Below the pieces are notes generated by a model that saw only the letters and a program-made list of their open reading frames with translations, was not told the DNA's origin and searched no databases. From Apostichopus japonicus (lineage: Eukaryota > Echinodermata > Holothuroidea > Aspidochirotida > Stichopodidae), in assembly GCF_037975245.1 (NCBI RefSeq), contig NC_092576.1, forward strand, positions 36,050,611 through 36,114,610: DNA of 64,000 bases. The letters run 5' to 3'. This document shows positions 7,991 to 60,300 of this stretch, piece after piece. Positions within the stretch are counted from its first letter, which is position 1. Every line of letters starts with the position of its first letter. The position numbers and the translations under genes are program-made.

Positions 7991-10600
7991 TGAGCGTGCA
8001 AGGGTAAGCTGGAACACCACAACTGAAAACAAAAAAAAGTTGACATTAAATGGATGCCAATATGGTCTCTAACATGGAGCCAATTCACATTATTGAGCGT
8101 CATATTAATAGAAAGAAATCAAACTAAGAAAAAGGAAAATGTTCACTTTGTTTATCCTCTACATCTACATTTTCCAAATGTTGATAAATACTAAGCTCAA
8201 ACTGGTAAGACGATCTTTTGGTCTGGGGCTATGTAATAGATTCCGCTAAAAATAATGATTAGAAATGTACTTCTGCACCTAAAAAACGTTTTAAGGGAAT
8301 ATGAAATATATGCAGTTTCCTAAGAATGGGCTCCCACCGGGGCTTGAAATACATTACAGAGAAATGTGATTCTTCTATCTGATACGTTATCATGTTTAGC
8401 TCCCCTAAGAGAGAATCAGGAATATCACCAATTGATACATATTGCAAGGGCTTCTGGGGCTTTGAAAGACTTTCCAGTAAAAAATGAATTCCTCTCTTTC
8501 ACAATATATCTTCTTCTTGAAACTCACAAGGGACGAAATCAATATATCTTAAAACGACTCAGCTTTCGGTGTCATTGTGCTCCAATAGTGCTCTGAGATA
8601 CATTCCATTGGATGTTAAGGTAGTTGCTTTTCTCTTTAAATGTTGCCACTTATAGGGACTTTGCTCATTCCCTTTACTTCCGGCAAAAACAGTGTGCCCA
8701 TCTTGAAATCCCTCTACACCAAATGTATATCTTGTGAGTGTACGCTGTTGAGTTAAAACTTCCTCTCCTTCTTAAACTGCGTGAATGTCGAAACTTTAAA
8801 CTATTGATCAATGTGATTTCTTAGGTTCCATCAAACGACCCCCATCAAAATAGTTGATCACTTTATATTGAATATGGTTAATACAGGAAACCACTGCTTT
8901 ATTTAACAAACGTCTAAAGTAATATAGTTTAATTATGAAAGACTTCAGGATTTTATTGCTCTATAAGTTTGACTGTATTATCAGTTGAAGTTTTCAAGAA
9001 GTCATATTTCCCTATGTTTTGAAGTTTAAATATCAATAATTCGTTCATGTTTTAATAGTGAATTCTACAGTTACTGACAAGTGTTTATATTGGTAATCGG
9101 GTAGTACTCAATTTGTACTTGGTTTTTCTCCAAAAACTTGTTACTCGATTTCGGTGATAGTTCTTGCAACCCAGCATTAACTACTTGGACTCTCTTAACG
9201 TAAACGTACTTGTTATTGATTTACATATTTGATACTTAACCAGTACGAGCACTTAACGAGTACCTATATTGCAGTCACTAGTGATGTATAGCTGACGCCA
9301 CAACAGGAAACCGCATAATGTTTAGATCCTTTTGGTATTCTATTGTCCTATAAGTCTTACACAGTATCGTACATGTAACTATATATTACCACCTACGTAT
9401 GAAGATGAAGAATTTATCAAGATGAGGAATCATTATAATGTTTGTCACTTTGCTATGATACGGAACAATTAATGATTGCTTTCGTGTTATTAATGTAACA
9501 CTCATGTATACTTGTTAGAAAGTTACTGCCACCTCTCAGACAATTTCTTGTAATATTGGAATATTCTGAAATAAAAATCCGTGCAAAGTTGTCAAACCCA
9601 ACTATAAAATCATGTGCCAACTATGGTTATCATAACGCATTTATCTTTTTGATGCTTGCATGTTTAGTAAAGCGAATACGAAATGACTTGATCATTCAGG
9701 AAACCGGCAACAAAAAGAATCCATCACTTATTCATCATTCGGAAAAATTTAACCTAAGGGAAAATGGAAAGAGAAGCTTGATGTAAAATAAAGCTTTAAT
9801 GTAGAGTGAAACTTGCAAATATCTGTAAAACCTTTGGTATAATTATTAAATATTAGTTGTGGTCAATAATATTTATGCTGCGACAGGCATACCTTCGTGG
9901 AAGGTCTGCATGTTCACCCAGACCTACTGAATGACGATTGTTTGACTTGATATGAAGTTTACCGAATAACAGCAAATTAGTGAGCAGTTCTTGGAGTATT
10001 ATATATTTTAAGATTAGTCATCGAGCTTACCCAAAAATGTGTTTTGTGTTCTAGTTAGGAACCAATAACCCTGAAGCTCAAATAAATGACGACAATGAGA
10101 TTGATTTAAAATTAAACTTAATAAAGTGAATGACTATTCCAGTGTTTTTAGTCCAGTAGTATGTTTTGCTACAAGTGTACTATTCATTCTTTGACACGTT
10201 GTACTGAGTCTCAGCAAACCCACATTTGTTTGGAGAAGAGAATCGTATAGATCAAAGAGTACATTTACCACTTTCTTGTATTCCAGTTTGGTCAGTTCCG
10301 AAAAACTTGAACCTTTCTGTGAAAACGAATAATCAATATAAGGTCAAGCAATGCCGTTTGATAATATTTCATTTTTTAAAAGCAATGATTGTAAAGTCAT
10401 TTTTCTAAATGTTTTCAATCATGGAATACATTAAAATTTGTTTTTCTTCTTCAACGGCACTAATATGGCAGAGCATTAAAAAGGTTTATCCCCCCACCCC
10501 CCCCCCCCACAAAAAAATGACAGTATATTAGTTGAAATAAATTAGCCCAGTTTGGCATACAACTACATCACAACAAACTCCGTATTCTTCCAGTTGGAAT
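7991..10600 (-). other. Probable 3' region of the Ig-NACHT gene; terminal exon unresolved
   Basis: The minus-strand receptor gene must end in this stretch, because its last clear exon (10627-10685) finishes in phase 0 with a good donor. Two candidates are visible. A strong acceptor at 8405-8406 would add two codons and a stop at 8396-8404. An exon-like segment around 7977-8021 has a long pyrimidine tract and a GTAAAC donor. Neither resembles the LRR-like modules, and I could not find a further 120-bp module exon here. The end of the gene is therefore open. Confidence 0.3.
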
Positions 10601-10626: not shown

Positions 10627-10841
10627 CTGCCATTTACCAGACGTTAAATCCAGGAAATATCTTTCCTCCGATAGATACCAGAGAACTGAAAGACAAAAGG
10701 AAAAATATATTGTTCTCGTTTGGTTGATATAAGCAGGAGGGGTTTAAAACATCTTAATAATTTTCATTTGTAAGCAAATACTATGAAGTAGACTTACAGC
10801 TCAATTCATTATGGAAGCCGATGTTTGTTGTATGGTTATAT
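10627..10841 (-). CDS. B-like and C-type LRR exons (Ig-NACHT gene)
   Basis: The exon at 10685-10627 (phase 1 to 0) has a CTTTTGTCTTTCAG acceptor and encodes LWYLSEERYFLDLTSGKWQ. This matches the C-type exons of the second gene (LDLSSGKW). Between it and the A exon, 10841-10798 (44 bp, phase 2 to 1, GTAAGT donor) fits the place of the B exon, but it is shorter than the usual 77 bp and only weakly similar. The C-type exon is firm; the B-like exon is a phase-based guess. Confidence 0.55.
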
Positions 10842-13800
10842 CTATAAAGTTGTATGGAGTGGTATGTTTGTGAGATGCATCATGATAAAAAGACGTGTGT
10901 TCTGATACCTTGTATGCCCTTTGTCTGCAACTGCTCTAAGAGTGTTCCTTGTGTGAAACTGAACGGTAGCAACGAGTATACAAAGCTATGAGAAAATACA
11001 AAATATATGATTATTTTATGTTAGTTATAAAATGTCAAATCTTACAAAGCGGTGATAAGATACGAAATATAGTATTATTACATGCTAGTTATGAGTTGTT
11101 ACAAATTACGAACGATAACATAAACATGAAACCATAGTACCAGTAAGGTGAGATATAGCTTGTACAGGGTAATATTTCAAGTATAATAAAGTCTAATAAG
11201 TTTTTAATCGTAGGGTTTTTATGCTAGTGATTTTGAAATTATGTTACTACGTGATTGCAAAATTGTAATTGACTTTTGTCTTTGCTCAGATGTTGTAGTT
11301 GTTGTTTCCACACTGAACGAGCGTTTACGTACTCTAATAAGAACTTCAAAATATGTGAGGTATGTTTGTGAAAAAGAATACCTGATCTCTTGTATGGTTC
11401 GACATTCTGTAATGAATTGGAATACATCGGCGATTTCATCTTGTCCTAGCTCGGTTCCTGTTTGTTCAATGGACAGTCGTTCGAAGTCAAATTGATGTGG
11501 TATGCGAACGTCAGATATCAACACAATTTCACGTGACGAAAGATTCACTGACTTGAAACATTCACTGAGGACTAGCTTTGGAATTCTTAACTGTAAATAA
11601 AGAAAACATAAATTATTTGAACCTTTATAAGTAACAACATAAAATACAGATGTAAGAACGTAAGAAATTAACTTTAATGTGCCTATGAGAAGTGATGTTC
11701 TTAAATATTAATTAAGCTCATGAAAATTACTTCTCGATAGCAAACATTGGACTTGGTAAGGGCGAGAAAATCAAGGGTTTATGTCTGGATATAACAGTTG
11801 GAAGGCTTCTAGCTTGTAATCCTGAGGTCACTGGTTCGAATCCCAAACTAATATAAATGCAAATAATTGGTTCGTATACGACAGATAAAGCCGACATGTT
11901 TCTATGAAGTGCTTATATTACTTTAATATTTAGTACATGAAACGTAAAAGAGCCTATAACAAACCCATTTAGTTGTTACCTTTTCACTGGCTGCAATTTC
12001 GAGAAGCTTTATAACAGATTTCTGTGTTATTCTGGTGTCGTGGTCCCTGATATGAATTGCTTCAGAGCAAAACTCTCTCACATGTTCCACTATTCCATCG
12101 ACGTTCTCACATTGCTCATACATACAAAGAAGGGCGAACTTCTTATTTCCAACGCCTTTCTTCAGATACTCTAGAATATGTTTCGCCGCCTTATGCTTTA
12201 AGCCACATGCAAATCTATAAACATACTGGAGCTGAGTGGGATCGATATCCTCCAGTATCTTAAGGCTGTCTTCCTTGTTATGTTCTTCAATTTTATCCAA
12301 AACGTTAGCAATATGATGGGCTGCGTACCACTCACAGAATAAACTGTGATAGAACCGAACATACGAAGCAGTTTTGACGTGTTCGGACGCCTGTATTTCA
12401 GGTTCGTTGGAAAACACAACTCTTTCCTCTTCTATGAGTATACCAATTTTCAAATATCGGTACAGGGCCAGTTTCCCGATTTTTTTGGTAAGGGAATCCT
12501 TTGTGGTATCAGGATTATATGAATGGTCGTTGAGGGATTCAAAACAAAATCGATCCAACTTGTGATGATTGTTTTCATCAAATGCAAACTTGTCTACCTT
12601 TTCATCACTGAACTTCAATGTCATATGGCTATGAAGGCACGTTATCATGTAGCGAAAGAAGCCTGTAACAGAAGTACAACTTTTTAGGGCATCACTCTCT
12701 AAACTAAGATGGGCGTACATGGCAAAAAAAAGTGGCACCTCGAACAGATCTTTAAGTATCGGATTACCTCGAAGCCACTCTTCAATGGTATTCTCAGTAG
12801 ACTTGAATCCGTTGACCTTTTGTAAATACCTTTTCTGCGCGTCGATGTTAAACCCTGTCAATCTTAGGCGGTTGGTCTGTGGTGCATAGTCTCTAGGAAG
12901 TAGTGACGATCTTGTGGTTAGTAAGACGTTGGCTTCAGGAAGCATCTTCCGTTCAATAACGTTGAAGATATCGGAGTGCCTGTCGGACTGCTCTCTGTCT
13001 GGATATTCATCGAATCCATCCAAAAGTATTAATACTAAAGAACTGTTATCGATATAGTCCCTAATTTCCTCAACAGAAAGTTTGGAGTCTTTTGGTAAAA
13101 TGAACAATTTTATTGCTTCGTAGATAGATGAAACTCCCTTCAACTGCCTTAATTTAAGTAATACGAATGTGTCGACACTACACATAAATGATCCTTCAAC
13201 TCTATTACACCATTCATAGGCAAGTTGTAGTGATAGGGTTGATTTACCGTACCCTGGGTCACCTTCAACGAACCACCGATTACTAGTTATTTCTTTGTGA
13301 GTGAAAATGTTTTTGTAAGAATCTAGTGACTTCCAACGGCCTTCCTTCCTTTTTCCTTTTGATAAATATTCAACGCCACCATCAACATACCATTCATTAA
13401 CTCCCCAACGTTCTCGCAAGAAAGGTATTGGTCTCAGTGAGTTGTATGCGTTTTGATAGGTTGATTTCAGTTGAGAAATAAAGTTCGAACCTTCACGAAT
13501 AGATAATAAATTTGATAAGTGGATATGGTAATGTGCAAGCAGAGAAGGATACAGTTCCAAATATAAATAAAACTGCACTCTATGAGCACATATAAGCAAA
13601 ATACATAGGTATTTTAGACAGTTGGATCAACGAACTTTGAATAGGTCAATATAAGCAAGTTAAATGGACTTAAAAGTGTTGGCATGAAAAATTAAGATAA
13701 GAAAATTAACGGTGCATATGGTTGGAAATGTTTTACCAAAAAGGTAAGGAGGAACCTTCCATTTTGTTTTAATTCACATAACAAAAGTAAAGAAGAGATA

Positions 13801-16800
13801 TTTAATTTGACACAAAGATATAACAACATATTTGTTATGTACTATACCTTTCATTTGTATCATGGGAACGTTCTATTGAGAAAGTAGAACAAGGAAAGAA
13901 AATGATCAAAAAATATGAAAATGTATTCTGAATTGCCAAACAAATTGTGTTCTTATGCAAATACATCTGCTAACCTAAAGTATTTTATATTGGGATACTG
14001 AAAAGTTGCATATTATAATGTTTAGTGTACATGTAAGTTTGTAGATTAGTATGTAGTTTACTGCACTTTTATCAACACTTAATTAGCTAGCATTGAGTAC
14101 AACGTTTATTACTCTTACCTCTTCATTAACTGTTGTCGATGTTCCTCTTTTATAAACTATAGAGCAAAGGCAAATCAGATAAGAAAACCGAAAAATAAAT
14201 GGTTGACTATTACATGAAGTTATGTATATACATGCATTTCTGTATTTGCAATAATCTAAAGCATGTTCCATCAACGCTTCTTTTAGTTGAAATTCGATCA
14301 GATTTACCTTTGTAGAAGGATACAGCTCCAATCACTGCGATAACCATGGCAATGACAATGACAACAACGACAGCAAGAGTTGTCTTATTAATAGTCGGTT
14401 TTATAGTGTTGTTAACTGGAGCAGCCTCCTTGGTGGTATGTTGTTCATCTGTAATCAGATATTAAAGGATGAAACGAAAGATATGCTTTGTTTTTTTGTT
14501 TTATGATTAATGATTTTTAGCTTCTAGACTTAGTAATCGACTAAAATATTTGTATGATCTGTACTGATCTGACCTACTAGGCTTCTGCGTTATTGTTTTA
14601 CTTTCAAGAGGGTAGGAAATAAAGTTAGAACTTGTAATATACTTATTCCCTACCCTCTACCCTTAACCATTACTTTGTCCCTGTACAGTTTATATCCTGC
14701 ATCTCCTCTTCCACTGTTAATTTCTTTCTTGTTTCCCTCTTCTCTCCACCTTTTTAAATGATCATCTTACAGCATCCTATTTTGTGTTCAACCTACTCAT
14801 TGACCTTTCTGTATTCTGTGTTGCGTTTGCCCCTTGTTGTTTTGTGTAACTTCCAGCCTCTGAACATGGTACTGCTAGTAACGAAACGTCAATACCACTT
14901 ACTTTTACACCAATATATTTCTGACAAAATACAATTACTATAAGGTTACAATAAAGCTGTACATGCAATTTCAACTTACTAAATTCTGGAAATAGTAAAT
15001 CAACCTTAGAAGACAGTGAAAAGTACTTGGAGTTAGGTCCCACAGCTCTACATTCCAGTGTTATCCTTCTACCAGCCGTTTCTTCTGCAATGTACTCTGT
15101 GGTAATCGATATATCTGATGTATCACCATTGGACCTAGTGTGCAATTGTTCATTCTGGAATGATATAGAAGAATCCTGGTGGTACGCTCTCCATCCTAGC
15201 TCTACCGCTGGTCGTATGCCCTTTACACTGCATGTCAGGATTCCATTGTAATTGGCCTCTAGTACACAATACCTTTCGTTGTTACACCCCTCAATAATAG
15301 GATATCCTGGAATTGGAGTCACTGCGTATCGAAAAGAAATGATAATAGGTGCAGTCATTTTGCTTAAAGGATCATTTTGAAATTTTGCCTAAGGTAATAC
15401 GACAACAACCAAACATGTTTAAGGCATTGCAATCATATTTCTTGGCATCCTTAAAGCTTAGTGAGCTTTATTCGTCATTTGAGCTGAACAAATGGCCCAT
15501 GCACAAGTGCACCGAATAGCTGTTGCTATGGTGTTGGTGAACATAAAACTGTAACTATTGTGTTTATGTGATGTACTCTCTATTGCTATGCGTACAGCTA
15601 TTCCTTACCAGTTATTACATTTGCACATCTTGATGTATTTACACATTTTGTTAGGGTTTTACATTTATATCAATCTAATCTAAATAATTTATCAAAACGT
15701 AAAGATCGAGCACCTCTTTGTTAAATTTGGCATGTTATTTGGGCATTGGAACAATATGAATTTCAAAGTCTTAAAACAACAAAGTTATATATGTTGAAGC
15801 CATTTAGACCAACTAATGTTAAAAGGCAGATAATGCGAAACCAAGTAACATCATAGTTGATCATTAACGTTAAAACCCGCGATAGCTGCACGTATGAATA
15901 CGAAAATGATATTCCAAATAAGTATATGTAAGAACAATGTAATACTAAGTAATGTTCCTATGGAAAGGGTGGTGAGGGTGAGAAGAGGGGAGAGAAATAG
16001 AAATATTGACCATAAGCATAACAGACAACAATCGAATAATTACTTTATTGTTACATTCACATCGGAATATGACACGCTTGGTTTGTTTCCTACTGAAAGA
16101 CAAGGCTAAACATACCATATATAACAAGATAGAACGATCTCACAGCCTCCGTCATGAAGTCACTGTATGTACAACTGTACAGGCCTTCCTGGTTTGACTT
16201 GGTATTATGTATGATCATGTTGCCCTCTTGTAGATCGTAGTTGCTTGATACAATGTAAGATTCTCCAGTTGAAAGAACATCAAAGATAATAACAGTGCTA
16301 GTATTGCCAACGGTCTGCTCCCAGACAAGTAGCTGATATTCACTGTCAGTACATGGAAGTACCACTCTGTTGTTTAGTTCAATGGATACTTCTTTCGTCT
16401 CAAGTGGAGGTATATAATTTTGTTTGTTATGGATCAATACTTTTGATTCACGTTTGGTCAGTAAATCAAAGGGATCGTTGGGTTTACAGAGAAGTAGTGC
16501 TATGTATGAGGAATATATGAACGGATCAGTAAGTGATAGAGAAGTTGACCACGTGTTTGTTTGGTTTGTATAAACTGTCATGTTTGTTAACTGAACATCT
16601 CCTTCGGGAGTCCTGACGACCCATGACAGTGGCATTCCAGGCCTGGCCTGCTTTATTCGACAGACTACTGCCATTTGTGGCCTCCATTGTATATAACACG
16701 TGTCGCGATTACCAACACAATCGTCAACAATGGCGTAAGGTGGCGCCGGACGCACTTGAAAGAGTAAAACAAATGCAAACATAAAGTTATATTTTTTTGA

Positions 16801-18053
16801 CATGGCATGGATAACTAGCACATCACAGCCTACTTTATAATAAAATCGATTAAAATGACAGTATAGTGACAACTATTGCTTTAACTAATAAATTGTAATA
16901 ATGGGATATCCAAAAACATTAAGTAAAAGTCATATTGAACCCAGTGAATGTACACATCAAATCTGCTAGATGAATGATCAAAATATAATAAATCCAGCAT
17001 AATTGACAACTACACTCAGCTAATACAAATTAAGGTCATTCACCTATATGGATTTTGAGGAACCATATTAATTAATAGAATGGTTAGAAAAGAGTGGGCA
17101 CTTATAAACTTAGTAATACAATGCAGACGGTTTGATGATTTTTACCTATTGTAATGATTTCTACATCATGTTTCTTGGGGAGTGTCTGTTCGGTTTCAAA
17201 TTCGTAAGCTGTAAACAACGTTTCATGCTGCACGGATACATTATTGATAATTAATGATCCGTCCATGTTGATGTTGAATTTTCCTGATTCGTAACCTTCT
17301 CCAGCAACTTGCTGACGTTCGTAGCTCAGGGTTGGAGGACCTTCTGTTACATCTAAGTTATAATACCAGTGAATACTGTAGAAGCCATCATTGAAAGAAC
17401 AGGAAATGTTCCCAGATTTTCCAATCTCAAGATATTGCGGGGAAATACATCCTTGTTTATCACCTGTAATGTAAGCAACGTAAACTTTTTTTACAACTTG
17501 TTCTAAGTTTAATACATCTTTTAATTGGATACATTTGTATGATTACTTGTCGTAGTATTTATCTAGGCTAGAGCAATATCTGAACAATGAAGTTATAACC
17601 AAGATGTTTATTGCAGATTCAATATATCAAATCATTCATGATATTCATGTACCAGTCATTTAATTTGGAAAGAAATCCAGATAGTATTGCGATTGGTTCT
17701 GCAGCAACTTCTTCGCTTAACTTCTGGTCCATTTGTCACTGTTAACGATAGGCAAAGTGCATGTCATTGCATATTTGTTTCCGTGTATAGTATATAAACA
17801 GCTGTAATCTAGCAAAAAGCCGGTTTAAGAAACTATTCATGTAAACCTTATAGAAATAAGAGAAATACAAAACAATGGTACATAATATAATGTGATCCAC
17901 AAATCAAACAATTACTTATGTTTAGTTGTTCACATATCACCTTTTGCCGTGATTTGTATGATATTTATAAGGATTTGGTAAAGACTTTTACTTACCAAAA
18001 GTAAATCTCCACATGAACATAGCCAAAACAGCAAACACGAGTTGTTGAGACAT
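10627..18053 (-). CDS. Ig(x4)-transmembrane-NACHT-LRR-like receptor (partial 3' end)
   Basis: This is a predicted type I membrane protein with an Ig ectodomain and an intracellular NACHT (NLR-type) ATPase. Coding exons in transcription order are 18053-17996, 17463-17146, 16754-16116, 15321-14980, 14448-14308, 14156-14119, 13872-13848, 13490-11980, 11590-11382, 10841-10798 (weak) and 10685-10627. They sum to 3,384 nt, exactly 1,128 codons, with every junction phase-compatible. Domain order: signal peptide 1-19, Ig1 about 20-125, Ig2 and Ig3 about 126-338, Ig4 about 339-452, Thr/Asn-rich stalk, membrane helix about 477-498, basic YKR juxtamembrane stretch, NACHT from about 520 with P-loop GDPGYGKST at about 597-605 and Walker B LILLDGFDEYPD, helical domains to about 1024, then one LRR-like module. 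There is no death, CARD or PYD domain. NACHT proteins are known cytosolic oligomerising sensors; a surface form is inferred from the signal peptide and helix. cDNA is needed to exclude two adjacent genes, but no stop or promoter separates the parts. Confidence 0.75.
11382..11590 (-). CDS. First LRR-like exon (Ig-NACHT gene)
   Basis: This 209-bp exon (phase 0 to 2) encodes LRIPKLVLSECF..., SSREIVLIS, FERLSIEQTG and a QFITECRTIQEIR end. It corresponds residue by residue to the A-type exons of the second NACHT gene (CF, EI.L.S, LE...I, EEI, EC..L.KI) and has the same phases. The acceptor is TTTATTTACAG. Confidence 0.75.
11980..13490 (-). CDS. NACHT ATPase exon (Ig-NACHT gene)
   Basis: This 1,511-bp exon (phase 1 in, phase 0 out) carries the whole NACHT module and helical domains. 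It has a LRPIPFL lead-in, Walker A GDPGYGKST, a LRQLKGVSSIYEAIK segment, Walker B LILLDGFDEYPD, sensor-1-like LLTTRSS, a winged-helix-like VPLFFAMYAH block, and the YHSLFCEWYAA and FRFACG helical region. It aligns by eye along its full length with the exon at 46610-48105. NACHT domains bind and hydrolyse ATP to drive oligomerisation; all visible nucleotide-binding residues are intact. Confidence 0.92.
13848..13872 (-). CDS. Juxtamembrane micro-exon 2 (Ig-NACHT gene)
   Basis: This 25-bp exon (phase 0 to 1) has a strong CTTTCTCAATAG acceptor and an AAAG|GTATAG donor. It is exactly what is needed to convert the phase-0 end of the 38-bp exon into the phase-1 start of the NACHT exon. It holds two in-frame ATGs, so a transcript starting here could make a cytosolic NACHT protein. 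Confidence 0.55.
14119..14156 (-). CDS. Juxtamembrane micro-exon 1 (Ig-NACHT gene)
   Basis: This 38-bp exon (phase 1 to 0) encodes VYKRGTSTTVNEE, the basic cytoplasmic flank of the membrane helix. It has a CTCTATAG acceptor and a GAG|GTAAGA donor. It is supported by its splice sites and by frame continuity only. Confidence 0.6.
14308..14448 (-). CDS. Stalk and transmembrane-helix exon (Ig-NACHT gene)
   Basis: This 141-bp phase 1-1 exon encodes a Thr/Asn/Pro-rich stalk, then a 22-residue hydrophobic run LAVVVVIVIAMVIAVIGAVS followed by a lysine. It is a clear single-pass helix with the stop-transfer charge on the cytoplasmic side. This exon joins the Ig ectodomain to the NACHT part and is the key evidence for the fused architecture. 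Confidence 0.8.
14980..15321 (-). CDS. Ig-like domain 4 exon (Ig-NACHT gene)
   Basis: This 342-bp phase 1-1 exon encodes a membrane-proximal Ig-like domain with GILTCSV, LGWRAYH and ITLECRA, the expected Cys-Trp-Cys pattern of a C2/I-like fold. Two extra cysteines (EGCNNERYC) at its start could form an additional bond. It ends at a GTAAGT donor. Confidence 0.75.
16116..16754 (-). CDS. Ig-like domains 2 and 3 exon (Ig-NACHT gene)
   Basis: This single 639-bp phase 1-1 exon encodes two Ig-like domains without an intron between them. The first has MAVVCRI, LSWVVR and IALLLCK, giving Cys-Trp-Cys spacing. The second has VVLPCTD, LLVWEQ and EGLYSCTY, a textbook Y-x-C strand. Several N-x-S/T sequons (for example NMT and NTS) fit an extracellular location. 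The upstream acceptor is a pyrimidine-rich CTCTTTCAAG and the donor is GTATGT. Confidence 0.8.
17146..17463 (-). CDS. Ig-like domain 1 exon (Ig-NACHT gene)
   Basis: This 318-bp exon is phase 1-1, between a TTACAG acceptor and a GTAAAA donor. It encodes one V-like Ig fold: a GNISCSF first-cysteine strand, IHWYY core tryptophan, then GSLIINNVS. The position where the second cysteine (Y-x-C) is expected reads LFTAYEF, so the canonical disulfide partner is missing. The symmetric 1-1 phase is the usual one for Ig exons. Confidence 0.75.
17996..18053 (-). CDS. Signal-peptide exon of the Ig-NACHT gene
   Basis: The exon encodes MSQQLVFAVLAMFMWRFTF, a short N-terminus and hydrophobic core typical of a secretory signal. 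It ends in phase 1 at a consensus GTAAGT donor. The ATG at 18053 is chosen because it opens the hydrophobic run and the TATA-like word lies just upstream. Confidence 0.75.
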
Positions 18054-34933: not shown

Positions 34934-38585
<3,652 letters not shown>

Positions 38586-45275: not shown

Positions 45276-45324
45276 ATGGGTAACCGCCGCTCACGCCCTA
45301 CAGAACAGGAACTTGATTTAAAAG
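45276..45324 (+). CDS. First coding exon with myristoylation-type N-terminus
   Basis: It encodes MGNRRSRPTEQELDLK and ends in phase 1 (AAAG|GTTCGT). A pyrimidine-rich CTTCATTTCTTTTCACCAG acceptor just upstream implies a spliced 5' UTR. The donor is not optimal, which is the main uncertainty. Confidence 0.6.
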
Positions 45325-48300
45325 GTTCGTCTTATTATCTTTGAATATTTTCAAATGTCTGCTTGAAAATATTTGTGTAAAAAGGTAGGGAGGGGAAACC
45401 GTTCATGTTGATCAGTCTACGTAGTTGAAGACTAAACGTATATATCTATGAAAAGCAGATGCCAAGTATCGTCTTAATCTCCATATTCCAACTGCCTCCT
45501 TCCTCCAACTTTCCTGTTCCGAAATATTTCGCCAATATAATAAATACGCATTGTTAAGGCAGGAAATAGTACACATTGTAATACTCTTTTATTGATTTAA
45601 TATTCAACATGAAAATGCTGTCTTTGTTCTTTAAATTTGGAAGAATAATCGCATGTCGATCACGGCAAATGACTAAGGCAAGGAGTAGCGAAAGGAGTGA
45701 AGTGCAACTTTCATAAAGTTATCGCTAGTTGTTCCTAGAAATGATTGACAAAATAAACAGCATGTACAACATATGTTCAATAGAAATCTTCTTGTAGGTA
45801 CCATGATGCCTCTAGATGAAATTTTGACTAAACAAGGCAATACATAATAGCACCATTGCACATTGAAAGATATCAGTCACTGTGGCGAATCTGATATAAT
45901 CCGATGAGCATCATCTACATACAGTTAACTTAATGTAGAATAATGAATATATTCACGTTAAAGGTATTCAATTGTGACCCTTTTTTATAAGGCCATTATT
46001 GTGCATAAGAAAGGATGAATTTCCTTTTTTAAATAATGAAAAAATAGGATACATATATACATCCCCTGTATTGGTAATTATATAAATTGCTCTGCAAATT
46101 TATTTTTATTTTTTTTGCAACAGCGCAGACCTAATTTTAGTACTTATCTTGATGTACATCATACCAAATGTTCGTAAACTAAATTGTCGCTTATTCTGAA
46201 TGTCATACTGCATCTTTGCATAACGTTTTGTTTCTACTGAATCATCCTTTAATCACGATGTTTTACAGAATTTGAACAAAAATGGCGGTTTGGTTAATTC
46301 CGATCCTTAAACTGCTAAAAAAGTGAATGTACTAACAATCTTTAATTGTTCAAGGAGCTACTTTTGCAGGCTGACTCAATATAACAAAAATGTTGCAACA
46401 CTGCAAAATACCAAGCTATTAATTAAGCTGAGATTAACAGACAAAGATGTCAGGCATAAAAGGTTTATTTAGCCACATGTATAATTACCATTTCCATCGA
46501 TCACCCTAATACACCCTCACACCCTATATCAGAAAACACAAATTACACTTTTAGTTGATATACAGCACGGTGTGTTAACAGGTCTAATATTTCTATCCTA
46601 ACTTAACAGTTAAAAAACAGAAATTCTTACAATCTCTGAAGAAGACGTACAAACTACAATATGACGCAGTCCAGCCAATACCATACATCAAAGACAGACT
46701 TTATCGCGTAGATAAGGTATTTATAGAGGGAGGTATAGAGATCTACATTACTGAAGACGATAAATGGGTAGGTATAGAGTCGTATAAAGATATATTCACT
46801 GACCTGCGGATAAAATCCACACGCCGAATCATAAAAGCAGAAGCCGGGTATGGCAAATCAACATCGACTCTACAACTCGCCTATGATTGGTGCAAAGGTG
46901 TAAAAGATTCACCATTAAAAGACGTAGATATACTTATTCTGCTGCGCCTGAGACAGCTTGGCGGCATTACATCTATCTACGAGGCGATTAAACGGCTCTT
47001 AGTACCTGACGACAAGCAAATAAAATCTACGGATATAAAAGATATTATAGAAAGTTGTACTTCTGTTGAGATACTTCTTGATGGATACGATGAGTACCCT
47101 GATCAAGATACAGAAACTGGAAGTGACGTGGAACGTATAATTACAGGAGAGATTTTCCCAGAGATCAATGTTTCTATAACAACGCGGTATAACCCGAAGG
47201 AGATTGACAAAGACATAACAAAGCATATTAAGTTTACTGGCTTTGACGATGAAGCTCGAGAGAAGTACATTCGTAAGGCAGTCACCGACAATAAATGGGA
47301 AGTCCGGAAAATTAGGGAAGCCTTACAAGCAAACCCAATCCTTGATGACTTATGCGTAGTGCCTCTGCTATTTGTCATGTTCGCTCATATGAGCCACGAG
47401 GAAAAAGAATTTCTTGACTGTAAATCAGTTACAGACTTTTTTCGTAACATGATGAAATGCTTTCATAGCCACATGAGGAACAAACGTCGGAATAATAATA
47501 CAGAACCATACAATAGTCAATTTGAAATCGAACACACTGAATTAGATGAAGTGGCATATGAAGGACTCGCTAACGAAAATCAACAACTTTCTTGGGAGAA
47601 GAAAATGTTGTGTGATCGACTTGGTCGAGGTTTATATAATCACTATCTTGCACTTGGTCTCTTGGTAGAAGAAATGGTTGTTGTCATGACCGAAACAAAT
47701 CGACAGGAGGAACATACAATAATTGAAGTACACTTCTACCATAAGCTATTTTGTGAATGGTTTGCAGCTTTTCGACTCGTTAAAATCGTAGCTGCTACAG
47801 AGGATGCAGCCAAAGTGAAAGAAGTTCTTGATAAATTCGATCCAAATGATCTACAGTACCTCTTCAGATTTAGCTGTGGAATTGACTCTAAAGTTAGCAG
47901 TAAAATAGTAACTTATTTGAAAAGAAGACAGGATTGTAGAAATTTCGCAATCCTCTGCATCATGGAACAAACCGGGGAATTGGATGAAGACATCAAGGGG
48001 ACCATAACAGAGGTCTGCTCTGAAGAGATTAAGCTCCAAACATCTGACAGCAAACTTCTGCAGAGATCCACTATACAGGTCTTAGATCTTGCATCCAGAA
48101 CTGAAGTAAGTAAACTACAACTAATTCAGTCATGAGGGTAGGGTCTTCGCCAATGTCATATGGAATGTTTTTTGTTTTTTTTCTGACATCAACACCAATA
48201 ACGCTAATTACGGACACAAGGTTAGTTAATATATTGGATATAGTTGTAACAATTTTCCTAATAGTTCCACCAGTCACGAGCTATTTAAGTACAGACATAT

Positions 48301-51300
48301 TCCAAAGTACACGTATTTTTCATGTAACCGTTTTGCTGAAGTTACCATGAATTCGTTTTGTGAAGATCGTTCACAAGTATTCAAATACGAGAAAGCAAAA
48401 TGTCATACCCTTATGTGTAGACCGTTAGCAGTAGTGGTTTCATGTTTTATAATAACTTATTCAATACTATTCTGTACGAAAATAAGGATATTTCATGAGC
48501 ATATTTCATTTGAAATATAAATAACAGGGTGATGAAATTGTATTTCAATTATGTGGAACATTAGAAACAGATACACATTGCTGACCGAAACAATGTTGTA
48601 ATGAAATACATTACGTCTTCTGCTTAAAATAAATATTTAACACAATTAGTATAACACAGGCATAGAGTCTAGCATTTATATATGTAGAAATTTGTTGTAA
48701 ATATCTTTCATAACAGGTCCTTCAGTCGAAGACGTCATCTATGATATACTTATTCATCATATAATTCAGTGAATATCTAGGGAAATTGTTTTCCTGTAAT
48801 ATATATTGTTGAACAAAAGTGTTTTAACATATAAGTATCATCCTGAAGCGAAATATTCTGATAAATTACCGGCAATTTATTAAATGATTACGGCTGTACT
48901 TCAGTATTCTATATTTTAGTCACAACAAACATGGCTGAATGGGAATGCCATAAACCCAAATTACCTCGTCATCATACTTGAAATATGGATCGTTCTTCTG
49001 ACGACATGTATATTCTTAAACCAAATAAACTATCAAATAACCCACATTATAATGTTCTCATTGTTAATTCATACTTTTTCTTTAGATTGCAGTATCTTGT
49101 CTTAGCCTGGACACATGTTTTACTAGTGCCGATCAAAGTGAAATAACCCTTGAATCTGGACTTCGTGTGCCCAATCTGTCATCACTCGAGCAAATGGAAA
49201 TCAAAGAACAGAAAGGGAAAATATTTACGGCAGAAGAGATATTAGGAGCAATACGATATGGAATTGAATGTCACAACTTAACAAAGATAACGTTAGTATT
49301 GAACTTATATCCATATTTGAATGTTGGTGATGTGATTTACCAAAAGTAACTGTAATTTTTTAGCGTGGTTTTCACGACCGTTGTATGTTCATAGTGTTAT
49401 GTATTTATCAGTTTTAAACACATTGTGTTAATGCATCAAGAGTGATTATGGTCAAACTGGTTGACACATCAGAGACATGAATGATTGTATGTTTCCTTCA
49501 CAAAAAGATCATTCTTATTTAACAAACAGGATGTAACTAGATGCTTCATACTATTAGTAGAATGACCATCTATTTACACTTTGTATGAACAGGTTCATTG
49601 ATTGTGTGCTGCCACTTTCCTTTAACTCCGAGTCTCTCATCCCAGCAATGAAGACCCATAAATTGACAGGTAAATATAGTTCAACTTATATAGCGATTGC
49701 GTTTCAGTGAGTGTGTAATCATTGGCGTAACCACGGAGAGTGGGATGGAAGGTGTCGAAATATCTGCCAGGCTTCACACAGGAATTGCCAGAACTATTTG
49801 TGTAGCAAATAAGTAAAGCCAGCCACCTAATGGAGCGTTTGGCAACCCCAAAACAGAAACCTATCTGCGATCCAGATTGTTCATTTGATGCTATGTGTAT
49901 TGTAAATTAAATAATAAATCATTTGCATATTTTTCTTTCAGTCTCGTGGAAACCATTGGATTGTGAATTTCATTTAGACCTTAGTAGTGGCAAATGGATT
50001 GACTTTCTACCTGCTTCAGTAAGTATATATGCCGATATTGGTCTTACATTTGTTTAACATTAAAACAAAATGTGTCACGTTGGAATATAGTCGACATTCT
50101 CCCAAAAATATATAACAATGTATTACATATGTGGTTTTTGTGCTTTACACATTGTTTGCATTCTGAAATTTACATCTAACGTTGCATCTAAACTGTGTAT
50201 TTTCTGCTTTTCGTGATTTCCAAAAATAATCAAATAATTAGTAATTGACACGGAATTGTAATGAAAAGTTCACTACTATGGTTTAGGCGTTTATTTTATT
50301 CACCCTTAGCCCTTATAATGGAACATTCGAATTTTGCTAAGAAGATATAATGAGTTCCTTAGACATAACAAAGAGTGACACATTTTTCTTTTCTAGAGGA
50401 ATCAAATTCTTGAAAGTTGCATTTCCAAATAGTTTAACTGTTGCTAACCTAAGCTTATTAAAGCATCAGGAAGTTCATATAAATTTTTTTTTAAATATGT
50501 TAATTTATATTAAAATCATGTTACTTGTCCTGATATTCTTAGTTTGATGATCGACTGAGTTTACAGCAAATGTGTTCGAAGCCAATTGTTCTACAGAGCA
50601 AAGAGGTGAATCAACATCAGCCTTCCTTGATGATGATCTTGAAAATTGCATCCAGGCATAACGTAAGTCAATGTAAAGATATAGCATTAATTTGTAAGGT
50701 TTAAAGAGTAGTTGAAATATTTAATTTTCAAGCTAAGAGCAACTTAATGATAAATTATGAACACAAATATTGTTTACTACATTATCAATAGAAAGAATAA
50801 TCTTTCTTATTGTCAGTAGTTCTAATTGTTAATACAAACATATATGAATGAACTTGCCATAACCCAAAATACTTCGTAATAGTCGCTGTAATATGGATCG
50901 TTGTTCTAACAAAAATGTATATTCTTGAATCTAATATATTGTGAAATAACCCAAATTTGAAGGATTTTTTTTTAATTTACTGTATTCATACTCTAACACT
51001 GTTGATTTTTTTTTTTCTATTTTAGATTGCAGTATCCTGTCTAAACCTAGACAAATGTTTTACTGGTGCAGATCAAAATGAAATAATCCTTGAATCTGGG
51101 ATTCGTGTGCCCAACCTGTCATCACTCGAGCAACTGGAAATCAAAGCAAAGAAAGGGAAAATATTTACGTCAGAAGAGATATTAGGAGCGATACGATATG
51201 GAATTGAATGTCACAACTTATCAAAGATATCGTAAGTATTGAACTCATATCCATATTTGAATGTTGGTGATGTGATTTACCAAAATTAACTTTATTTTTG

Positions 51301-54300
51301 TAGCATGGTTTTCACGACCGTTATATGTTCATAGTGTTATGTATTTATCAGCTTTAAACACATTGTGTTAATGCATCAAGAGTGATTATGGTCAAATTGG
51401 TTGACACATCAGAAACATGAAGGATCATATATTTCCTTCACAAAAAGCTCATTCTTATTTAATAAACAAGATGTAACTTGAATGTTTTATATTATTAGTA
51501 TAATGACCGTCTGTTTACACTTTGTATGAACAGGTTTATTGATTGTGTGCTGCCACTCTCCTTTGACTCCAAGTCTCTCATTCCTACAATGAAAACCCAA
51601 AAATTGACAGGTAAGTGTAGTTCAACATATATAGCGATTGCGTTTTAGTGAGTAATTAATCAGTGGCGTAACCACGGGGAGAGGGATGGGAGGTGTCGAA
51701 ATATCTGTCAGGCCTCACAACAGATTTATGAGAATTATTTGTTTAACAAATAGGTAATGCCTACCACCTAGTAAAGCGTTGAAAATCCAAAACCATAAAC
51801 CTTAGCGCGATCCAGATTGTTAATTTGATGCTATGTGTATTGTTAAGTAAATGATAAATCATTTGCATAATTTTCTTTCAGTCTCGTGGTCACCATTGGA
51901 TTGTGAATTTCATTTAGACCTTAGCAGTGGCAAATGGATTAACTTTCTACCTGCTCCAGTAAGTATATGTGTCGATATCGAACTTACTTCTCTTTTTTTA
52001 ATAGTAAATTTTTGTTAATGTCAAATGGAAAATAATCAACATTCTGTCACAGATATGTAAACATTTATAACATATGTGATTTGTGTGCTTTATATATTTT
52101 GAGGCATTCTGAAATTTACATTTAACGTTGCATCTAAAGTTTGTATTTTGTGTTAATCTCCAATTCCAATCATAATATATTAATTAGTAACTGACACGGA
52201 ATTGAAAGAAAAATGTTTACTAATATGGTTAGATGTTTATACCTGAATCTACTTTATAATGAAACATTCACATTTGTCAATAAGATATAATGAGTGTCTT
52301 AGACATAACGAAGAGTAATTTAATATATTTTTTAGAGGAATTAAAACTCTTTACGGCTGCATTTTAAAATTGTTTTAACTGTTGCTGACCTCTGCTTAGC
52401 AGAGCATCATTAACTTCGTAGTAATACTTTTTTTTAAATATGTTAATTCATGTTAAAATCATGTTACTTGTCCTGTAATTCATAGTTTGATGATCAACTG
52501 AGTTTACAGCAAATGTGTTCGAAGCCAATTGTTCTACAGAGCAAAGAGGTCAATCAACATCAGCCGTCCTTGATCATGATCTTGAAAATTGCATCCAGTC
52601 ATAGTGTAAGTCAATGAAAATATACAGCATTAATTTGTAATGTTTAAAGAGCAGTTGAAATATTTAACTTTCAAGCTAAGGGCAACTTATTGATATATTA
52701 TGAACACAAATATTGTTTACTACGTTATCAATATATAGAATAATCTTTCTTATTGTCAATAGTTCTAGTTGTCAATACAAACAGAGCTGAATGAACTTGC
52801 CATAACCCAAAATACTTCGTCATCGTCGCTGTAATATGGATCATTGTTCTAACAGAACTGTCTATTCTTGAACCCAATATATTGTGAAATAACCCAAATT
52901 TCAAGGAAAAAAGTTATTTACTATATCAATATTTTCTCAATGCTGTATTCGTTGTGTTCTCTTTTAGATGGCAGTATCCTGTCTAAACCTAGACAAATGT
53001 TTTGCTGGTGCAGATCAAAGTAGAATAATCCTTGAATCAGGACTTCGTGTGCCCAAACTGTCATCACTTGAGCAACTGGAAATCAAAGAAAAGAGAGGGA
53101 AAATATTTACGGCCAAAGAGATATTAGGAGCTATACGATATGGAATGAAGTGTAACAACTTAACAAAGATTTCGTTAGTATTGAACTCATTTCCATATTT
53201 GAATGTTGGTGATATGATTTACCAAAGTTAACTATACAATTGTTTAGCGTGGTTTTCACGAGTTTTATATCTCATTTTGTTATGTACTTATCAGTTTAAA
53301 CACATTGTGTTAATGTATCAAAAGGTATTATGGTCAAACTGGTTGACACATCAGAGACATGGATATTCGTAGAACACCTTTACAAGTGTTCGTTGAAATT
53401 TATCAAACAAGGTGTAACTTAAATGTTCTGAACTCTTAGAAGAATAACCGTCTATTTACACTTTGTATGAACAGATTCATTGATTGTGTGCTGCCACTTT
53501 CCTTTGACTCCAAGTCTCTCATTTCTACAATGAAGACCCAAACATTAACAGGTAAGTGTGTTTCAACTTATATAGCGATTGCGTTATATTTAGTATATAT
53601 ACTCAGTAGCGTAACCGTTGGTAGAGAGATGGGAGGTGGCGAACAATATGCCAGACCAGGTAAAAGAATTGTCAGAATTAATTGTTTAGCTAAGAGGTAA
53701 TGCCTGCCACCTAGTTAAGGGTTGGAAATCCAGAACCATAAACCTAACCGCGATCCAGATTGTTAATTTGATGCTATGTGTATTGTCAAGTGAATACGAA
53801 ATCGTTTGCATAATTTTCTTTCAGTCTTGTGGAAACCATTGGATTGTGAATTCCATTTAGACCTTAGCAGTGGCAAATGGAGAGGCTTTTTACCTGATTC
53901 AGTAAGTTTTCATGTTGGTATTGATCTTACATTTGTTTAATTAAAAAAAAATAAAAACTGTGTCAAGCTGGAACATACTCGACATTCTCCAACAGATATG
54001 TAATAACGTATAACGTGATTCTGAAGTTTAAGTTGAATTTTAGCCACCCTACCACCTTATTTGAAGTAATTCAACACAAGTAAGAAAGAAACTCAACATA
54101 AATGAAAAGAAAAGCATATAAAGACAAACATCATATAATTTTATGTTAGAGCACGTGTTTCCAGGATTTATGTATGTCCCTAACACACAAGGCCCAGCAA
54201 CCCATCTAGACAGTTTGCATTCCAGACGGACGGAACCTTTGATTATTTACACGGGGTGCTTCCAAATGAAGAACTGTCTGGAAACTAAGAATAGTTTGGT

Positions 54301-57300: not shown

Positions 57301-60300
57301 TGTCAATCGTTCGACTGGCGAATGGAAAGTCTTACATATGTACGCCACGTAATTAATATAGCCCTATATAATCTGTGCGTAATTATAATGATTGGAAATG
57401 ATTTTATTTTTATGATTACGATATTGATTGCAAGTAGGGTATAGGCCTTACGATAAACACACGTATCGAGATGCGTTGTATCTCCCGGAAAGGAAACTCG
57501 TTAGTTGTGGGTCACTCACGGCAAGAACGTTGTCGAGTCTCCGCTAGTGTGGCTGTAGGAAACAATAGCATAGATTATGAAAACTACAGAAATCCTTAAT
57601 ATTTGTGTTAAATATCATATTACAGACCAAATATAAATATTTCTAACACTGTTTTTACTTGTATCTGAATTTCGTCAGCTTACGAATTATATTTTAATCA
57701 AATCATTATTAAATCATGCTTTTTTTTTATTGGTACGTTTGGCAAGTAAGTTTGAATAAATCACCACTCGTCTTTCTTTTTATCATTAATAATTTAAATG
57801 CAATAATGTTCCTAATATTATGAATATTGAAAAAATAAGAAATCACAGACAATTCTTCGTTCAAATTAATGATTAATTGTATAGCTTTTTTATTCATTTT
57901 TGTGTTCTTTTTCATATACGTTGAATATTCATCAGGCGTATTTATTTATCATGGATGAACTATAAGATAAGTTAACTGTGATCTTTCTTTCCTATTCTTC
58001 AGATTCCAATATCTCATCTACGCCTAGAATGGTCCTTCAGTGGATTTGACGGTAAAGATATTAGACTTGAGTCCGGTCTTAGTTTATCAATCCTATTATC
58101 AGTAGAGAAGATATCCATCACTGCAAGAATAAAGAAACAGGAATTAACAGAGGAAGAAGTGATCGGATTAATAAAATATGGAATACAGTCATCAAGATTC
58201 AAGGAACTATGGTAAGGGGAAAACATTGTGACAGGCCTTGGTTGATATTATGTGGGTTAGAGGGGGAGGAGGGGTAGTCATAGGGTAAACGTATGGGGTA
58301 TATAGGAGGGTATAAGGTAATGGTATTGTGCAGTGAATTTTTTCTTTTGTTAATGTAGAATGATAGTGACAGAAAAAAAATCTCTCATTTTCATATATAA
58401 TGTAGTTTATATGTTACCAAGCAACATATTTTTTTAATTTTCCAAATAGCACACCGGAAAGTTATAAAAAAGGGAATTAAAACATCGTTTTTTCGTCTCC
58501 GTAATTTAGGAATTTGCAAACACTGCAACGACCTTGAACAGCCCTCAGGTCAGTGAATGACGTCACTGTGATGATCTTTTCTGTTGTGAACTGCTAAGTA
58601 CGGAGCTGTGCGTGCATTTCGTGTCAGCATAACTGTTTTTTTTTCCGGCGTAATGTTCAAGACATAAATAGATAATGAATATCATGGTGTTTCTTGATTT
58701 CTTCACCACGTGTTTACAAACAATTTTTACGAAATTTTGTATGAATGTGCTCACTTACCAGTCAAACTGGCGCAATAACAATAGTGATGATAGTCTCAAA
58801 CGTAGTTTAGTATAACATCCGAAAGAAAATCCAAAGTTCTAAACAAAGTAGATTCGCTTGTATGCACTAGGCCTACTGTAAAACATAAACGTTCCTTGTT
58901 CCGTGCGTCATTAAATCCAACAGAAAGGTTCATTGAGCTTGAAATACAACCGCATTTGAACTCATTCGAGTAGTTAGTCTAGCTCGAACAATTTTCTCAC
59001 TACATGCAATGCCTATTGGGTTTATTCACATACATGCCTCGTAGTTTGGGCTTCAGGAGGAATCGTATTCTAGCCCAACTTCACGTAGGTCCGCAAACGG
59101 TACTTTCACACTGTGCATAAGTGACAGTGTGCGCTATCGTAAGTAATACTTACACGATGTTTTGTTTCGCTCGAGCAAACACACATTTTTGCACGTGGAT
59201 TCTCTCCTCACATAGTCATTAGGTTGTTCACGTCTGACATGGCTTCCAGTTCCAACACTTACTGTTGCATTTATCGGGATATATATAAATAATGCGGCAT
59301 AAGAGCATCAATCTTTCAAACTTTTTTTACTTTACTGACCTTGCCACGCAAATTTCAATTGGGCCCGAGATGGCTCTATGACCGATTATTCCGTAATTTA
59401 CATTGGGGCAGTCGGCTTCACTAAAACGACAAGAAAAAGCAGGAACAATAACACCTTATTAAAATTAGACCGTTAAAAGTCTCACCAGGGAGTTGTTATG
59501 GAACTCCCTGGTCTCACGCAGTGTATCAAATCTCCTCTCTGGTTTAGGTTGTTTGTCGAGTCCAATATAGAGTAGGTTGCAACTAAACTTACACACTAAG
59601 TGCACACTGCTGAAGTACACTACGCCGAGCTCACTTTGTTATCATCATAATGACGTCACATGTCAATGTAGATCACGTGATCATCATATCGCTGTTCGCG
59701 AAAAGCCCAATTTTTGTTTAAAAAATCAACGAGCTTAGGATTTTTTTTTTAAGCCTTTCCCAACATCGCATTGACTTGAATTTTCACATGTGTAATATGG
59801 AAATCAACTAAAATACTCTTGAATAAAATCGTATTTTTTCGTCGATGCTGAAAAATCACTATCGTTCATCTTTAAATTTACAAATCTTGTGTTAAGACGT
59901 GCGGTTTAAAATGTTGCAATATTTGTAAGGATCTGTAAACTGGGAAATATGTTAACATTTTTCTTTCATTACTGATTGTATAGTGTAAAACACCTCGTAC
60001 GGGTTTTCCACAGAATAGGATATAACTGGGTGGGTTAGTGGGGGGTGGGTGCTTTTCAGTATAATAGGAACAACAAATAACATTAAAACTTATACACGAA
60101 TTAGAACTGCAATGAACAAATACATATAAATTGTTATGTAAAGCTTGACACAAAAGTATAGGGAGAAATTCAAGTACATGGAAACGAAAAAGTTTGCTGT
60201 TTATTTTAAATTAATTTATTGTTATTAAAATTAAGGATATTTTCAAGAGTTATGCAAATTTTATTAAAAATATAAATAGTTAAATTAACAAATCATCAAA

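Follow-up and report, generated by a model that had tools for sequence, protein, structure and literature searches.

The 64,000-nucleotide (nt) window of the Apostichopus japonicus (sea cucumber) genome analysed here (contig NC_092576.1, positions 36,050,611 to 36,114,610) carries on its minus strand a predicted receptor gene whose product joins an immunoglobulin (Ig) ectodomain, through one transmembrane (TM) helix, to an NLR-type NACHT core. The predicted protein, P0001, has the order signal peptide, four Ig domains, one membrane helix, disordered linker, NACHT core and C-terminal alpha/beta domain, with intact switch residues, signals of type I topology and no Pfam LRR. We propose that this single gene encodes a type I single-pass surface pattern receptor of the AjNLRC4 type, with the four Ig domains outside and an NLR switch inside that works as set out below, and we give this reading a probability of about 0.6. 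NLRs are textbook cytosolic sensors, and an NLR switch placed behind an extracellular Ig array makes it possible to ask if extracellular input can drive NACHT assembly. The main value of the analysis is corrective. The Ig-TM-NACHT architecture is real and already published in A. japonicus, with this gene adding a member and not an architecture, and the sequence favours Ig outside and NACHT inside over a recent inverted claim. New here are the scale of the family, the type I topology signals, the invariance of the switch residues and two members with degenerate NACHT domains.

Gene model and domain composition

Nine exons, numbered 1-9 below, were joined by splice sites and phase into 1,093 residues in a single frame, with GT/AG borders and no conflict, which agrees with the phase-compatible exons on one strand described by the initial annotation. 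Before this join only single open reading frames (ORFs) had been scanned against Pfam and PDB, and the homology search came after it. Among 7,142 candidates it found 367 proteins with E <= 1e-3, of which 120 were listed. The top match, at 100% across the query region, was P0001 (1,164 aa, 'uncharacterized protein [Apostichopus japonicus]'), whose residues 1-1093 are identical to the nine-exon join. P0001 may have been predicted from the same DNA, so this identity alone is no proof of a transcript.

The initial annotation had proposed profile searches for Ig and NACHT, and Pfam models for V-set (32.1 bits, cut-off 26), ig (26.3, cut-off 21.8) and NACHT (54.3, cut-off 26.7; residues 594-745) all scored above cut-off on P0001, while Ig_3 (26.2) stayed under its cut-off of 30. 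The predicted structure contains four all-beta Ig-like stretches before a lone membrane helix (474-504), followed by the NLR core, and the hydrophobicity profile has a single membrane-grade peak. Pfam and the predicted model together bear out the annotated order of signal peptide, four Ig domains, membrane helix and NACHT. As in immunoglobulin-superfamily receptors, the Ig domains are placed outside the membrane helix. The NACHT core has a predicted fold nearest to NLRC4 and NOD2, and the hallmarks of an NLR/STAND ATPase (NACHT, Walker A and B, sensor, GxP and winged-helix histidine) are all present; both Walker motifs are intact, as annotated (Walker A GDPGYGKST, Walker B LILLDGFDEYPD). Vertebrate NLRs such as NLRC4, NOD2 and NLRP3 are cytosolic, with an N-terminal CARD or PYD and a long C-terminal LRR. 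They share the NBD-HD1-WHD-HD2 fold and its motifs with P0001, which, unlike them, carries an Ig-TM part N-terminally and a C-terminal domain of about 140 residues. On P0001, Pfam gave no match to CARD or PYD at E <= 0.1, the N-terminus being taken up by the signal peptide and Ig domains. The 'LRR-like start' of the initial annotation likewise drew no LRR hit from Pfam at E <= 0.1; an LRR-like stub is nevertheless possible, because residues 1024-1164 form alternating strands and helices in the predicted model and the NLRC4 and NLRP3 chains align into this region.

When P0001 was mapped onto the window, the gene comprised 13 exons from 18053 to 9724, with about 4.8 kb of introns in total. The eleven exons annotated earlier over 10627..18053 fit exons 1-11 in span and count, with two 3' exons overlooked. 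Exon 1 (17996..18053) encodes the putative signal peptide (MSQQLVFAVLAMFMWRFTF; hydrophobic N-terminus, modelled helix 3-17) and ends in phase 1. Exon 2 (17146..17463) encodes Ig domain 1 (V-set stretch, residues 33-102) and exon 3 (16116..16754) Ig domains 2 and 3 (modelled beta strands; Ig_3 at 249-323 below cut-off). Ig domain 4 lies in exon 4 (14980..15321; modelled strands 358-448; Pfam ig on the ORF at 14 bits, below cut-off), and exon 5 (14308..14448) encodes a stalk and the single membrane helix. Exons 2-5 are each phase 1-1, exons 1-5 being separated by phase 1 introns, and the 1,511-nt NACHT exon likewise begins in phase 1. The membrane and NACHT exons are bridged by two small juxtamembrane exons, exon 6 (14119..14156, 38 nt, phase 1-0; VYKRGTSTTVNEE, with 13 of 13 residues agreeing with P0001) and exon 7 (13848..13872, 25 nt, phase 0-1; NVPMIQMK). 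Exon 8 (11980..13490) spans NBD-HD1-WHD-HD2, with Walker A at residue 597 and Walker B at 674. The C-terminal alpha/beta domain begins in exon 9 (11382..11590, no Pfam LRR) and, according to the P0001 mapping, continues in exon 10 (10909..10985) and exon 11 (10627..10685; VLWYLSEERYFLDLTSGKWQ), which closes the span annotated earlier. Beyond that span lie exon 12 (10269..10316), the only splicing within the searched range to yield the P0001 sequence, and exon 13 (9724..9753; KFFRMMNK and the stop, by P0001 mapping).

A family of related receptors in sea cucumbers

The family counts rest on the first 120 to 124 proteins fetched. A Walker-A-like motif past residue 400, with a hydrophobic 19-mer 60-200 residues upstream, was found in 67 of 124 relatives, so that the order which the initial annotation had suggested seeking in other genomes recurs as TM-NACHT spacing behind a long ectodomain. 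A slightly varied motif placed Walker A past residue 400 in 65 of 120 proteins; 52 of these combined a strongly hydrophobic N-terminus with a TM helix, 11 had the TM helix only and two had neither. At least two named species carry the family, all named matches among the 120 listed being from A. japonicus or Holothuria leucospilota. P0001 matches P0003 at 62% and P0005 at 60% in the NACHT region, and P0005 at 53% in the ectodomain. Judged from these sequences, a large family with a NACHT chassis behind an Ig array is present in at least two sea cucumbers, and it bears on what replaces LRR sensing.

Of the 67 members, 58 were aligned, leaving aside two that were longer and seven that were shorter. 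Invariant in 58/58 were G600, G602 and K603 of Walker A, D678, D681 and E682 of Walker B, the sensor arginine 714, the GxP proline 773 and the winged-helix histidine 902. Column entropy was 1.94-2.40 in the Ig domains versus 1.38 in NBD/HD1. Because its members were collected through a NACHT search, the aligned set is biased toward intact switches.

Searches with the ectodomain reached 14 proteins of matching length (approximately 640 to 2,037 aa), 13 of which had a NACHT-family tail; this number includes a broken model (P0126) and two degenerate NACHTs (P0128 and P0130). P0128, from a 4,322-nt contig, and P0130, from H. leucospilota, have an Ig-TM part, a long charged linker, degenerate Walker A and B motifs and a Pfam NACHT score below cut-off; they could possibly be dead partners or decoys. 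Among shorter proteins (286-910 aa) the ectodomain was found in only four. Two of them had a Pfam NACHT match, P0123 had pieces of the tail and P0121 stopped after the helix. Because these searches relied on words and overlooked known relatives (P0003, for example), the statement that the ectodomain occurs almost exclusively with NACHT tails is true only of the proteins reached. The remaining one of the 14 proteins of matching length, P0132 (A. japonicus, 1,856 aa), has a related Ig ectodomain and TM helix ahead of a long tail of another kind that had no NACHT match.

One gene or two

The chief structural alternative is that an Ig-TM receptor gene and a neighbouring NACHT gene were wrongly merged. 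The tiny 38-nt and 25-nt exons that link the halves would allow for this, and P0001 is itself a prediction. The identical layout in 67 of 124 relatives from at least two named species speaks against it, as do the relatives known from contigs. In 16 of 23 relatives represented by contigs alone, the membrane helix and Walker A share one frame. Seven of the 16 (P0018, P0050, P0059, P0095, P0098, P0107 and P0113; P0059 with part of its N-terminus missing) occupy 82-98% of their longest contig, which leaves no space for introns of about 4.8 kb, and these contigs consequently look like cDNA, on the assumption that the 'lgn' contig label denotes assembled sequencing reads. Parts of AjNLRC4 have moreover been cloned and antibodies raised, according to the available portion of its account (PMC8699970). 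Two fused neighbours are therefore an unlikely explanation, and we regard a wrong merger as very improbable.

Alternative splicing or starts could instead yield separate Ig-TM and cytosolic NACHT products, beside or replacing the fused form. P0121 is annotated as an Ig-TM protein stopping after the helix, P0004 as a NACHT protein beginning in the juxtamembrane region, and phase 1 introns flank the TM exon. Both proteins may, however, be fragments of gene models, and 13 of the 14 ectodomain relatives retain a NACHT tail, be it complete, partial or degenerate; we consider separate products improbable.

Membrane topology

K/R residues were more numerous in the 15 positions following the helix than ahead of it in 67/67 relatives, and N-glycosylation motifs occurred at 1.46 per 100 residues outside versus 0.42 inside. 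These family sequence signals favour a type I topology, with Ig out and NACHT in. The opposite arrangement was proposed in 2026 for AjNLR-new (PIK48001.1), an A. japonicus protein of 1,197 aa with Ig, TM and NACHT, the NACHT being placed outside and the Ig inside (PMC13133943). In the available description, this rests on a TMHMM prediction, on TM-NACHT at the membrane of 293T cells, and on recombinant NACHT that binds the coelomocyte surface and is blocked by antibody (PMC13133943). AjNLR-new, which we took from that description only, shares Ig/TM/NACHT with P0001, whereas its claimed topology opposes the family signals: the N-terminus ahead of the Ig domains is signal-peptide-like in 52 of 65 members, the positive-inside pattern holds throughout and glycosylation motifs lie mostly on the Ig side. 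Surface binding by added recombinant NACHT does not establish the topology. An inverted orientation of the receptor is thus hardly credible. P0038 is possibly AjNLR-new, having the same length and a mass of 136.5 versus 136 kDa, but its pI is 5.15 versus the reported 5.34.

Relation to published receptors

The initial annotation knew of no vertebrate protein built in this way. The source is a sea cucumber, and the build itself was in print by 2021, in AjNLRC4 of A. japonicus (MN607598), which is described with Ig outside, TM, NACHT inside and a location at the coelomocyte membrane (PMC8699970). Its authors stated that, to their knowledge, no protein combining Ig and NACHT had previously been reported (PMC8699970). 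As far as the available text goes, the Ig part of AjNLRC4 binds microbes, and the receptor dimerises and internalises after Vibrio splendidus and has a role in phagocytosis; its intracellular part binds beta-actin directly (Kd 5.87 uM) and the recombinant Ig part oligomerises (PMC8699970). The layouts are closely alike (TM 483-503 and NACHT 600-757 in AjNLRC4; 474-504 and 594-745 in P0001), and AjNLRC4 is described with neither CARD nor LRR, for which Pfam had no match on P0001 either. The possibility that the P0001 gene is AjNLRC4 was rejected, as the AjNLRC4 primers misfit the window (best 5-9 mismatches). The AjNLRC4 ectodomain primers encode GTPQYLEL and AFPVVSGC, at most one residue off family members. 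AjNLRC4 likely belongs to the same family, judged from the published architecture and from Ig motifs compared via primer peptides. The published account also predicts a second TM at 776-795 of AjNLRC4 (PMC8699970), unlike the one membrane-grade peak of P0001. By position alone this segment overlaps the post-GxP helix of P0001 (773-782), which makes a membrane helix improbable, and the 'second TM' is probably none.

Other accounts, each in its available portion, place the family more broadly. A 2022 study reported 53 NLRs in Chiridota heheva, an apodid sea cucumber, six with other domains including Ig V-set, and did not identify Ig V-set NLRs in sea urchin (PMC8913654). By this description, in which a TM helix is unstated, they resemble P0001 as holothurian NLRs with Ig V-set. 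An expanded family in the A. japonicus genome has been annotated as NLR-CARD proteins (PMC13228809, 2026 preprint). NLRs of the sponge Dysidea avara are predicted to be membrane-bound, like P0001; unlike in P0001, Ig pairs there with TIR, and the account mentions no Ig-NACHT combination (PMC12909245).

Proposed mechanism

In the proposed mechanism, microbial surface molecules would cross-link the Ig domains, and the cross-linked receptors would dimerise or cluster. The NACHT tails, meeting at the membrane, would then swap nucleotide and adopt an open form in the manner of NLRC4 and NOD2, and the clustered tails would recruit actin machinery for phagocytosis and, after internalisation, a caspase. 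Input would arrive via the N-terminus through the membrane, replacing the C-terminal LRR input, with the Ig-TM part standing in for the CARD or death-fold domain of other NLRs. Such coupling of extracellular recognition to NLR-type assembly is plausible. If it holds, the receptor and the NLR 'inflammasome' would be one molecule, assembling beneath the plasma membrane.

The leading alternative that keeps this anatomy is a one-gene receptor whose NACHT is a static docking scaffold for actin or adaptors, with Ig dimerisation signalling and nucleotide switching unused. The published AjNLRC4 data, namely dimerisation, internalisation and actin binding (PMC8699970), fit a scaffold, the intracellular part binding beta-actin, the Ig part oligomerising and the available account describing no ATPase assay. 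P0128 and P0130 also retain Ig-TM without Walker A and B. The invariance of nucleotide-site residues in 58/58 aligned members, next to higher Ig entropy, argues against it, although a set drawn from a NACHT search favours intact ones. We judge a static scaffold unlikely, with a chance of about one in five.

Several points weigh against the switch-bearing type I receptor that we prefer. The one-gene model was read from genomic DNA and a predicted protein. That the P0001 gene would act like AjNLRC4 is a function transferred by analogy, and ATP-driven NACHT assembly is presumed to be part of its working. The two intracellular primer peptides of AjNLRC4 had no convincing match among the fetched relatives. 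The degenerate NACHTs of P0128 and P0130 suggest that the switch is dispensable in some members, and the orientation published for AjNLR-new is the reverse of ours. Finally, a 2025 study of a caspase-1/MLKL lytic pathway describes, in its available part, that the Ig part, but not NACHT, binds caspase-1 (PMC11932488); with Ig outside, this requires an internalised or processed receptor.

N-termini and evolution

A second NACHT gene of the family lies on the plus strand of the window, where a 49-nt exon (45276-45324; MGNRRSRPTEQELDLK), whose start resembles a myristoylation motif, connects in phase 1 with a NACHT exon (46610-48105). Another relative, P0086, begins MGNLQSAKKEE. No family Ig exon was found upstream of the second gene on the plus strand by tblastn with 120 relatives, and a lipid, in place of a helix, may tether its product. 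Phase-1 borders flank the Ig exons and open the NACHT exon in two genes of the window, which would facilitate exon shuffling.

A quick tree was made from 126 NACHT cores, for which 16 labels had been assigned by eye beforehand and many labels came from partial gene models. In it, Ig-TM, death-like and bare N-termini were intermixed; the Ig-TM label needed 21 changes, 12 of them forced by starred branches. A cleaner set kept 71 of the 126 rows (62 with at least 430 residues before the NACHT core and nine death-like ones), seven long-branch or pseudo-NACHT rows being excluded by name. Here the changes dropped to three, and a single clade of death-like rows, a group defined once the first tree had been seen, was not rejected (p-AU 0.161). 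We therefore do not claim that Ig-TM and death-like N-termini were swapped repeatedly. Pfam Death matched, below cut-off, one of the nine death-like proteins (P0118, 17.9 bits, cut-off 22.6) and none of the other eight. We only tentatively extend the picture to a surface NLR family in which variable four-Ig input would pass through the membrane to an intact NACHT, the same chassis also standing behind death-fold-like or myristoyl-type N-termini and some members being catalytically dead.

Other features of the window

Downstream of the second NACHT gene, 49081-54011 (plus strand) holds three head-to-tail copies of small C-terminal-domain exons with a period of about 1.94 kb and 82-85% identity. 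More C-terminal-domain exons of the family lie at 57982-63234 (plus strand; e.g., 60487-60561 and 63040-63231), and their 85-95% identity to exons of P0079, P0081 and P0083 points to further such genes there. A fragment of a DUF4371 protein was found at 1821-2477 on the plus strand (34.3 bits, cut-off 32.1); DUF4371 pieces mostly derive from hAT-type transposons. A long TA repeat lies at approximately 38465-38582.
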